Origin: a virus
DNA: 49,934 nucleotides
Strand: one strand, 5' to 3'
Virus record (IMG/VR): IMGVR_UViG_3300048030_000125
Span: 1-49,934 of that record
The notes under the pieces: model-generated
The model's input: the letters and a program-made list of their open reading frames with translations, nothing else
Told to the model about the DNA's origin: nothing
Database searches by the model: none
Program-made: the position numbers and the translations under genes
Shown: positions 23,525-36,594 of the stretch, in pieces
Numbering within the stretch: the first letter of the stretch is position 1
How the letters are laid out: every line of letters starts with the position of its first letter

Positions 23525-24826
23525 ATGTTTTTATCAGAAAACTTACAAGAAAAGTGGCAACCGATTCTAGAACACGCCGATTTACCAAAAATCGAAGACA
23601 ACTACAAACGTGCTGTTACTGCTGTTATCCTTGAAAACCAAGAGAATGCTCTAAACGAAGACAGAGCTCAATTGGCGGAAGCAGCACCTTTAAATGCTAC
23701 TGGTAGTTCAATTTCAAACTGGGACCCGATTTTAATATCCCTAGTTAGAAGAGCTATGCCAAATCTCGTTGCATACGACATTTGTGGCGTTCAACCTATG
23801 ACTGGCCCGACAGGACTTATCTTTGCAATGAAAGCAAGGTATAACGACTATCCATCAGAATCTGTTGTAAATAAAACTGAAGCAATGGGAATCAACGAAG
23901 TTGAATCACGTTACTCATCAGAAAATCAAACAGTAACTGCTGGACTACAAGCTACGGCTAACTCAGACCCTTTTAACTCTGACTATGCAACTCATACTGG
24001 AAACGGAATGACTACTGCATCTGCAGAAGCATTAGGTGATGTTGAAGCATCAAACGGTTTTGCTCAGATGGCATTCTCAATAGAGAAAGCAACTGTTACT
24101 GCAAAATCAAGAGCATTAAAAGCAGAATACACATTAGAACTTGCACAAGACCTCAAAGCAATCCACGGTCTTGACGCTGAGTCAGAACTTGCGAATATTC
24201 TTTCATCAGAAATTCTTGCAGAAATCAACAGAGAAGTTGTTAGAACAGTAAACGTACAAGCAAAAACAGGTGCATCAGCAACTGCTTCTGCAGGTACATT
24301 CAACTTAGATGTAGATGCAAACGGAAGATGGTCTGTTGAGAAATTCAAAGGTTTATTATTCCAAATCGAAAGAGAATCAAACACAATTGCTAAAGAAACA
24401 AGAAGAGGAAAAGGTAACTTTATCCTATGTTCTTCAGACGTAGCAAGTGCATTGTCAATGGCAGGTGTATTAGATTACGCTCCAGCTCTTTCAACTAACC
24501 TAAACGTAGATGATACTGGTAATACTTTTGCTGGTTTATTAAACGGTAGAGTTAAAGTATATGTTGACCCTTATGCAGGTGTTGACTACTTAACAGTAGG
24601 TTATAGAGGTACTAACCCTTATGACGCAGGTCTTTTCTACTGCCCATACGTTCCATTACAAATGGTTCGTGCAGTCGGTGAGAACACATTCCAACCAAAA
24701 ATCGGTTTCAAAACTAGATATGGTATGGTTTCAAATCCATTTGTCGGTGCTACACCAGCAAACGGACTTGCATCAGCAGGTACTAACCAGTACTACAGAA
24801 AATTTGCAGTGTCAAACATTCTGTAA
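23525..24826 (+). CDS. 23: Major capsid protein gp23-like
   Basis: 433 residues. NWDPILISLVRRAMPNLVAYD, IFAMKARY, and near the C-terminus YCPYVPLQMVRAVG and FQPKIGFKTRYGMVSNPF are signature gp23 segments. The N-terminal propeptide contains LAE at 50-52 followed by AAP, a good match to the gp21 cleavage rule, so the mature protein probably starts at Ala53. It has an AAAGGAA site before the ATG and is the last gene before a strong terminator. No separate gp24 vertex protein is seen in the window. Confidence 0.96.
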   Translation: MFLSENLQEKWQPILEHADLPKIEDNYKRAVTAVILENQENALNEDRAQLAEAAPLNATGSSISNWDPILISLVRRAMPNLVAYDICGVQPMTGPTGLIFAMKARYNDYPSESVVNKTEAMGINEVESRYSSENQTVTAGLQATANSDPFNSDYATHTGNGMTTASAEALGDVEASNGFAQMAFSIEKATVTAKSRALKAEYTLELAQDLKAIHGLDAESELANILSSEILAEINREVVRTVNVQAKTGASATASAGTFNLDVDANGRWSVEKFKGLLFQIERESNTIAKETRRGKGNFILCSSDVASALSMAGVLDYAPALSTNLNVDDTGNTFAGLLNGRVKVYVDPYAGVDYLTVGYRGTNPYDAGLFYCPYVPLQMVRAVGENTFQPKIGFKTRYGMVSNPFVGATPANGLASAGTNQYYRKFAVSNIL

Positions 24827-24857: not shown

Positions 24858-24888
24858 AAAAAGGTCTCTCACGAGACCTTTTTTTTTA
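24858..24888. terminator. Bidirectional intrinsic terminator after gp23
   Basis: GGTCTC (24863-24868) pairs with GAGACC (24873-24878) around TCAC, flanked by five A on the left and ten T on the right. On the + strand the T run ends gp23 transcription; on the minus strand the A run becomes a five-T tail that would end the antisense unit coming from 25230. Confidence 0.9.
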
Positions 24889-25230
24889 TCTTTAAACTGG
24901 GACTGCATCCTTCCGAATCATGCCTTATTATCCTTTCCTTCAAAGTTGACTCTAATCGTTCAATGTCTTGGGGATTAACCCAATTCTTTACACCGTGTCC
25001 TTCTAGTGAGGCCTTACCTCAATTTTATCTAGGTCAATAGGTAGTGACCATAAAGAAATTCGTTTACCATACTTTCCCAATTCGTCAAAAATTTCAAGTA
25101 CTTCTCTGTTCGGATTCTATCCACACCTCACGATTATATGCCACGTCTTAATTGACTTTAACAGTGTGGAACACCTTTTCTATACGGAACAACCTCTCAC
25201 AACCAACTTACTTCCGTCTCGATTTCCTAC
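24858..25230 (-). ncRNA. Antisense transcript of ~370 bases without an intact ORF: candidate noncoding RNA or decayed gene
   Basis: The region 24889-25318 has no + strand gene. On the minus strand a strong promoter (25266-25237) and a terminator define a ~370-base transcript. All three minus frames contain several stops, and no ATG occurs in the first ~190 bases. Local hairpins are visible, such as TTGGG/CCCAA (near 24980) and GAGG/CCTC (near 25010). The strand is purine-rich, and stop-free runs of 36 and 49 codons in different frames look vaguely protein-like, so a frameshifted pseudogene is the main alternative. Retention of promoter and terminator favours a functional RNA. It is the only minus-strand unit found. 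Confidence 0.5.
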
Positions 25231-25236
25231 TTTACT

Positions 25237-25266
25237 AGTATACCAAAAAGTGGAGGGGATTGTCAA
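25237..25266 (-). promoter_or_regulatory. Minus-strand sigma70-like early promoter
   Basis: Read on the minus strand: TTGACA (25266-25261), an 18-base spacer containing CCCCTCCACTTTTTGG, and TATACT (25242-25237). It closely matches the three + strand promoters at 36565, 37306 and 40213 in both boxes, spacer length and the CCCC..CACTTTTT core. Predicted start near 25230. Confidence 0.8.
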
Positions 25267-25318: not shown

Positions 25319-25537
25319 ATGAGTAATTTAAATAAATCGGGGTTCGAAATCAGAGCCGACCTATTATCACAAGCAGAAGGACTATTGACTTCTAATTATC
25401 AGAGGGAAGTTGATGCTATCTACGCACACAACGACTCATTCCCAAATGATAAAAAACCTTTACCATTAAGAGAAATCACTGGTGAAGAAGTCATTAGAGT
25501 TGCAAGACAATTGAATGAGTTCGTCATCGAAAAATAA
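25319..25537 (+). CDS. Small conserved-looking hypothetical downstream of gp23
   Basis: 72 residues from ATG 25319, chosen because ACAGGAG precedes it; the frame is open further upstream only through the promoter region. The sequence (NKSGFEIRADLLSQAEGLL, then REITGEEVIRVARQLNEFV) is helical and looks like a short phage protein found next to gp23 in marine T4-like phages, by memory only. A CCTAAATA late-like box lies at 25267-25274. It overlaps the next gene by 23 bases. Confidence 0.65.
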   Translation: MSNLNKSGFEIRADLLSQAEGLLTSNYQREVDAIYAHNDSFPNDKKPLPLREITGEEVIRVARQLNEFVIEK

Positions 25538-36564: not shown

Positions 36565-36594
36565 TTGACAATGCCCCTCACTTTTTTGTATACT
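36565..36594 (+). promoter_or_regulatory. Sigma70-like early promoter P1 (family member)
   Basis: TTGACA (36565-36570), 18-base spacer with CCCCTCACTTTTTTG, TATACT (36589-36594). The 39 bases 36556-36594 are identical to 37297-37335. Predicted start near 36601; the next gene has AAGGAG and ATG 36622. Confidence 0.92.

Follow-up and report, generated by a model that had tools for sequence, protein, structure and literature searches.

Only a few structured RNAs of phages have a known function. Beside its tRNA genes, bacteriophage T4 carries two small stable RNAs, rnaC and rnaD (species 1 and 2), which are annotated with lengths of 139 and 119 nt and for which we know of no function. Nearest in kind to the RNA described here are GOLLD and ROOL, phage RNAs of unknown function which are often found near tRNAs. 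GOLLD, phage- or prophage-encoded, adopts an elaborate covarying fold, often lies near tRNA genes and exceeds 800 nt in many of its members; ROOL, likewise phage- or prophage-encoded, is pseudoknotted, is often situated near tRNA islands and is represented by a solved example of 659 nt (PMC12286853, in the accessible part of that paper). A permuted tmRNA with a glutamine riboswitch has been described in the phage Melnitz (PMC9004378, in the excerpt consulted).

The locus studied here lies on a stretch of 49,934 nt (IMG/VR record IMGVR_UViG_3300048030_000125, positions 1 to 49,934), which as a whole is referred to as the window. It is a fragment of a T4-like phage: scaffold, major head protein, tail tube and UvsY match PHROGs, and the portal protein is about 55% identical to that of the nearest isolates, Melnitz and Mosig. 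Directly after the major capsid gene gp23 (23525–24826, plus strand; PHROG 138, E 1.1e-161), exactly where the initial annotation had located it, a unit of about 373 nt occupies the minus strand, convergent with gp23 and divergent from orfA (25319–25537, plus strand), a small unknown gene without PHROG match. The unit is headed by a sigma-70-type promoter (25266–25237, minus strand; TTGACA, 18 nt, TATACT) which agrees with the consensus at 11 of 12 positions and is the best of 20 promoter-like hits between 22000 and 28000. Its proposed origin from the phage's own early promoter family is borne out. It is nearly a copy of three plus-strand promoters of the window at 36565, 37306 and 40213, and TTGACA, the 18-nt spacer and TATACT (59) or TATAAT (6) precede the element in all 65 rows with enough upstream DNA, the window included (70 rows were examined, five of which were left out as too truncated or because the element start was not found). 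Across nine carrier records scanned with the family pattern, allowing up to one mismatch, it is the sole family promoter on its strand, the other family promoters, present in seven of these records, all being located on the opposite strand. As the number of promoter-like hits in the region is at chance level (20 vs 18.2 expected, sd 4.5), the case rests on the recurrence of the element and on its covarying fold. The promoters at 36565, 37306 and 40213 are themselves of early type, nearly identical and have spacer sequence in common; other carriers possess their own versions of them.

The predicted 5' end of the transcript, at about 25230, coincides with the start of a conserved structured core of 284 nt (24947–25230, minus strand; model R1). 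The core is followed by a variable 3' extension (24884–24946, minus strand) which is present or absent between carriers, being long in the window, L131, L133, L128, L089, L139 and L092 and short in the other rows compared. A terminator had been predicted some 370 bases downstream of the promoter and a perfect inverted repeat is indeed found there (24858–24883), scored in the terminator scan on the plus strand, where it also terminates gp23 (four found vs 3.1 expected). Since the repeat is symmetrical, it represents a bidirectional intrinsic terminator which is shared with gp23 and probably weaker for the minus-strand unit.

By means of exact-word scans, nhmmer and a covariance model the RNA was found in at least 118 contigs including the window. 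The exact-word scans of IMG/VR returned 36, 67, 42 and 38 stretches, some of those from the last two scans being unrelated, while nhmmer yielded 71 contigs including the window at 80 bits or more, many of them near-identical or partial. Three further words were scanned for distant members, two of them contributing 80 of 90 and 80 of 84 matches (as inferred from row counts). Among the matches listed, R1 recognised 47 of 48 new loci with 94 to 287 bits; eight of these are, by sequence, truncated members of the window's clade, and 39 fall into divergent groups whose representatives are 64–73% identical to the window. The window core, from which R1 was partly built, scores 349 bits, and in 91 loci regarded as devoid of the RNA (610 kb) model R2 does not exceed 14.5 bits. 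Uncut matches measure 250–298 nt. A large number of contigs break off within or at the RNA (including L131, L143, L085, L108, L103 and L123), as expected where near-identical sequence of co-occurring phages breaks assembly. Two copies of the RNA, L234 517–814 and L242 7286–7583, harbour a large insertion near the 5' hairpin loop.

In about 70 contigs the element resides at the same place. Their 26 distinct cores gave an alignment of 287 columns with a mean identity of 94%. RNA identity averages 93%, compared with 70–83% nucleotide identity for six neighbouring genes (17–21 carriers each), and the RNA is more conserved than gp23 in 163 of 171 pairs.

The consensus fold of the window's clade comprises 65 pairs with 99.3% of cells paired and a two-sided change in nine of them. 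Covariation amounts to 0.134 vs 0.070 in shuffled alignments (0 of 500) and 0.012–0.026 in slid ones; the count of pair types does not exceed that of the shuffles (85 of 500). Alignment A3 consists of 46 sequences fitted to R1, itself a model of the same family; the effective number of sequences is only about nine at 90% identity. Here, 37 of the 65 pairs show a two-sided change, 96.4% of cells are paired and covariation rises to 0.438 vs 0.151 shuffled (0 of 500) and 0.042–0.083 slid; with one representative per group, 32 of the 65 pairs still change on both sides. A4 comprises 21 sequences whose alignment made use of no structural model; here RNAalifold predicts 41 pairs, and a two-sided change is seen in 22 of them. 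This fold repeats helices 3, 4, 6, 8, 9 and the last hairpin, as well as the 75–77/84–86 region in a shifted form. Helices 1, 2 and 7 are not contained in it and, therefore, rest on the fitted alignment across groups. In addition, the A4 fold includes a different 5'-to-3' helix (columns 26–29/291–294) which competes with the pseudoknot described below. The folding energy of the window's RNA does not stand out from that of shuffled sequences (z -1.36, with 6 of 100 shuffles equally good).

Helix 1 is a long-range helix in which 25220–25227 pairs with 25054–25062. Within the clade it changes from AU (17) to GC (9) at column pair 8–174 with 100% of cells paired, and in the fitted alignment A3 five of its eight pairs show a two-sided change, 91.9% of cells being paired. 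The subsequent hairpin (helix 2, 25184–25217), which bears a conserved G/U-rich loop, is free of variation inside the clade, and across groups six of its six pairs change on both sides in the fitted alignment. The region of helices 4 and 5 (25120–25170) contains the most conserved stretch of the RNA. In the helix 8 hairpin (25032–25049) the stem is swapped between CG and GC and between AU, CG and GC at column pairs 186–199 and 187–198; 100% of its cells are paired in A3 and it is predicted again in the A4 fold. The helix 9 hairpin (25007–25021) is dispensable, as it is absent in L092/L111 and in a group characterised by an adjacent tRNA-Asp gene. The last hairpin (24968–24983; helix 12 of the clade, helix 13 of A3) again displays two-sided changes, namely AU 15 / UA 11 at clade pair 252–265 and UA 20, AU 18 and CG 8 at A3 pair 335–349. 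We would like to mention that columns 126–130 of alignment A1 could pair with columns 174–178, i.e. with the 3' strand of helix 1 (pair 130–174), which hints at a conformational switch.

A mutual-information scan was performed on a sequence-only alignment of 45 sequences, from which L234 was left out for its large insertion. Twelve of the top 100 pairs belong to the starting structure (0.16 expected), and column pairs outside the model which rank among the top ones form a helix of five base pairs between 25131–25135 (AATCG in the window) and 24954–24958 (CGATT), thereby creating a pseudoknot. Many other top pairs that were inspected made no pairing sense. In A4 the two strands of the pseudoknot are complementary in 21 of 21 sequences (100%), which use eight different helix sequences and show compensatory changes in all five pairs. 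Its covariation is 0.938 vs 0.318 shuffled (0 of 500) and 0.010–0.150 slid; the numbers of two-sided pairs (64 of 500) and of pair types (315 of 500) are not above shuffles. Inside the window's clade the helix is nearly invariant and thus uninformative. Its columns are misaligned in several divergent rows of A3, which we think is due to R1 containing no pseudoknot; helices 10–12 of A3, in none of which a two-sided change is seen, are located in or near this region. RNAalifold, applied to A4, places part of the 3' strand of the pseudoknot into another helix.

Compensatory changes above the controls are hence present within the clade, across the divergent groups in the fitted alignment and in the pseudoknot in the sequence-only alignment, though some measures do not exceed the shuffles. 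GU cells outnumber AC cells by 335 to 27, which identifies the minus strand of the window as the functional one. We conclude, with a probability of roughly 0.93, that the unit encodes a structured noncoding RNA (core 25230–24947, minus strand) and not a pseudogene, which favours the first of the two readings offered by the initial annotation, a new structured RNA or a gene decaying by frameshift. The computation supports a conserved fold, its strand, a promoter-defined 5' limit in several contexts and several genomic sites.

The RNA constitutes a family of about 250–300 core bases which matches no Rfam family. It is improbable that it is a diverged member of a known one, be it RNase P RNA, tmRNA, GOLLD, ROOL or T4 rnaC/rnaD. 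Such a relationship is suggested by the adjacency to tRNA genes in several groups, which is often seen with GOLLD and ROOL as well (PMC12286853, available part) and which the annotation of T4 also reveals for rnaC and rnaD. It is further suggested by short look-alikes: a stretch of 18–19 bases resembling rnaD occurs in the window, L238, L220 and L005, and a hairpin of 13–15 bases resembling E. coli rnpB in L238, L220, L207 and L230. Four queries were compared on both strands with eight references, namely E. coli 16S, 23S, 5S, rnpB, 6S, a stretch taken to hold ssrA (the annotation shows no such gene there) and T4 rnaC and rnaD. Three of these 64 comparisons (window and L238 with rnaD, L238 with rnpB) gave z 3.5–4.0, 1 of 60 shuffles being as high, and all of them concern short stretches.

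Against such a relationship, Rfam yields no match at the gathering threshold in the window and, at relaxed E, none at the RNA which reaches the gathering score in ten members (window, L144, L111, L107, L116, L145, L238, L203, L207 and L230), the GOLLD and ROOL covariance models included. Nor does R2 find any match at E<=1 when the T4 record is searched in full. The short look-alikes had prompted a reading as an RNase P S-domain, which was dropped; RNase P has no Rfam match in the ten members and no P4-type core could be recognised. ARAGORN detected no tmRNA in the window or in the 39 divergent loci, and an Rfam tmRNA fragment of 14.5 bits in L203 (5487–5503) is situated outside the RNA. Across 16 named T4-like phages, including T4, KVP40, HTVC008M, Mosig, Melnitz, P-SSM2, Syn9, S-PM2 and C48C1, R2 scores 12.3 bits or less. 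A blastn search with the window element and three divergent elements against 50,697 phage records gave no match. The literature searched, in which few subscription papers were covered, contains no recognisable report of this RNA.

The description of the unit as antisense is valid as an orientation in the window's clade, where the RNA is opposite to and downstream of gp23 in every carrier with gp23 in its locus. It does not apply elsewhere, since there the RNA either shares the strand of gp23 or is found at a distance from this gene. In members of the tRNA-Asp group, whose gp23 is about 64% identical where full length, gp23 is followed by tRNA-Asp and, 4 nt later, by the RNA on the same strand as gp23; this spacing to the model start is found in 17 of the 39 divergent loci, all from one related group. 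In three others (L207, L220 and L227) a tRNA-Glu begins 6–11 nt after the RNA end, so that 20 of the 39 loci have a tRNA within 11 nt. In two more, L230 and L232, the RNA lies 516 nt after a tRNA-Ser which is itself preceded by a tRNA-Ala. The 50-kb window itself contains no tRNA according to ARAGORN. The RNA of L221 and L240 is situated before a gene of 835 aa, which in L240 encodes a DNA polymerase (PHROG 262; nearest isolates T4-like). The L238 copy follows a gene which carries the annotation nucleotide cyclase in HTVC008M and Melnitz and whose family, PHROG 35576, also precedes the RNA in L207, L219 and L242. The tRNA-Asp group and the polymerase group are T4-like and the other divergent groups are presumably so. 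In 11 of the 39 divergent loci, representing five distinct upstream sequences, TATAAT with a -35-like hexamer begins 11–16 nt ahead of the start of the model, an arrangement also seen in the window's clade; a simple promoter search found none in the other 28, and a simple terminator search none within 80 bases downstream in the 39.

Some further neighbours were observed. Glutamine riboswitch matches (gathering 35) are present in L111 (1071–1134, minus strand, 56.4 bits), where the riboswitch lies between gp23 and the RNA and, by eye, precedes a small peptide gene, and in L203 (7349–7491, minus strand, 45.1 bits). In L010, a gp23 relative lacking the RNA, a leader resembling the glutamine riboswitch and a gene for a small peptide are discernible by eye about 60–400 bases after gp23. 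A gene with weak SprT likeness, below the Pfam cut-off, flanks the RNA in two groups (L238 5580–6068, L225 7371–7784, L230 9356–9793; also L178, L187 and L191) and is, in addition, present in loci around early promoters of the RNA-carrying records G023 and G032; its product may be a partner of the RNA, or the association may be due to chance. In most members of the L195–L216 group a NifU-like gene directly follows the model end, its listed start overlapping that end.

Regulation of gp23 by the unit, with minus-strand transcription interfering or the RNA pairing with the capsid transcript, would agree with the position of the RNA in the window's clade and with the shared terminator, but is very unlikely. 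The conserved core stops at 24947, 120 bases before gp23, pairing with an overlapping transcript needs no compensatory structure, and the other loci, with the RNA on the gp23 strand, before the DNA polymerase gene or behind the cyclase-like gene, largely refute it. Overlap with an opposite-strand target is accordingly not a conserved arrangement. Antisense pairing to gp23 as such is unlikely, since conservation concerns structure and unpaired motifs and since other phages have the gene at another site. The core contains no 12-mer complementary to the plus strand of the window (1.25 expected).

Even less probable is a DNA-level element which is not transcribed into RNA, such as an origin or a recombination or packaging site. 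It would account for the single full-length match per record (30 of 30, two records adding a 12.4-bit fragment) at a fixed site in the window's clade; however, the retention of GU pairs on one strand, the placing of a promoter at the 5' end in differing surroundings and the copies flanked by tRNAs argue against it.

In accordance with the initial annotation, all three minus-strand frames of the unit are interrupted by stops; its statement that the first half is devoid of ATG does not hold, as an ATG is found at 25070, just inside that half. A protein gene decaying by frameshifts, which protein-like stretches seen by eye in two minus-strand frames might suggest, can be practically dismissed, since stops occur in every frame in eight of eight group representatives checked, three read-through queries with stops masked as X gave no Pfam match, no intact protein homologue appeared, the best short frames are disrupted by indels of one or two bases in some members, two-sided changes keep the base pairs and the six neighbouring genes evolve faster at the DNA level. 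A conserved small peptide was rejected as well: the three commonest short frames of the core are present in 24 or 25 of the 26 clade members, but the stretch is nearly invariant and indels within it break the frames in the remaining members.

The structured RNA has a patchy distribution among related phages. From at least 600 gp23 relatives the best 80 were kept, one of which, L005, is a carrier. R1 detected no RNA in the remaining 79, nor in 11 additional loci, some of all these loci ending at or soon after gp23, and gave a single match of 6.6 bits on 22 whole records of non-carrier gp23 relatives. A gp23 tree was built with 40 rows, of which 25 are distinct carriers and 15 are non-carriers chosen from the 79; in it all carriers fall inside one clade of 33 rows, eight of which are without the RNA, which is therefore dispensable. 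The carrier label requires four changes on this tree, three of them forced by starred branches; hence, losses or exchanges of the RNA have occurred. Among bacterial genomes one exact 18-mer was encountered in a Paenibacillus contig, a locus supported by neither R1 nor R2; R2 on the Paenibacillus genome lent no support either (150 of 377 candidates scored), though an empty result of this kind of search carries no weight. The exact-word scan does not exclude hosts because the 18-mer is specific to the window's clade.

The family is thus compact, under strong sequence and structural constraint, spread over at least 118 contigs of uncultured phages, unmatched in Rfam and not found in the phage isolates searched. 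In the window's clade it is most likely the host RNA polymerase that transcribes the RNA, early in infection, using the early promoter of the phage itself; in other groups, the spacing suggests that it is processed together with tRNAs. It folds into a branched central domain, small hairpins and a long-range helix which closes the structure, with the pseudoknot joining the central domain to the 3' end, as covariation indicates. The folded RNA probably acts in trans and might then most likely bind a host or phage protein, the ribosome or a tRNA-processing component during takeover, any particular partner being doubtful. Tentatively, we envisage a new class of RNA, so far encountered exclusively in uncultured phages which are T4-like where this can be judged, whose members would serve as compact machines built from a pseudoknotted RNA, be it as a ribozyme or as an RNA-protein particle, in host takeover or in the control of tRNA and translation. 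If so, different phage lineages either drive such an RNA from an early promoter or place it next to tRNAs within a joint transcript. Alignment, models and pseudoknot render the family directly testable and enable genome annotators to label what would pass as empty intergenic DNA.

Compared with the described systems, the RNA shares with the tmRNA and riboswitch of Melnitz the occurrence of structured RNAs in marine T4-like phages (PMC9004378, consulted excerpt); it differs in that the window is without tmRNA and R2 reaches only 10.3 bits in Melnitz (E 0.275). T4 rnaC and rnaD, both small and stable, have their genes next to those of tRNAs in a T4-like phage, as the RNA does in several groups here, yet both are shorter and only the short stretch mentioned above is shared with rnaD. 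With ROOL the RNA has phage origin and a pseudoknot in common, and with GOLLD phage origin, a covarying fold and, in some groups, a nearby tRNA, whereas its uncut matches of 250–298 nt contrast with the 659 nt of the solved ROOL and the more than 800 nt of many GOLLD members (PMC12286853, the part accessible). By analogy to these systems we favour a stand-alone RNA which would act in trans, here early, in the manner of GOLLD, ROOL and T4 rnaC/rnaD.
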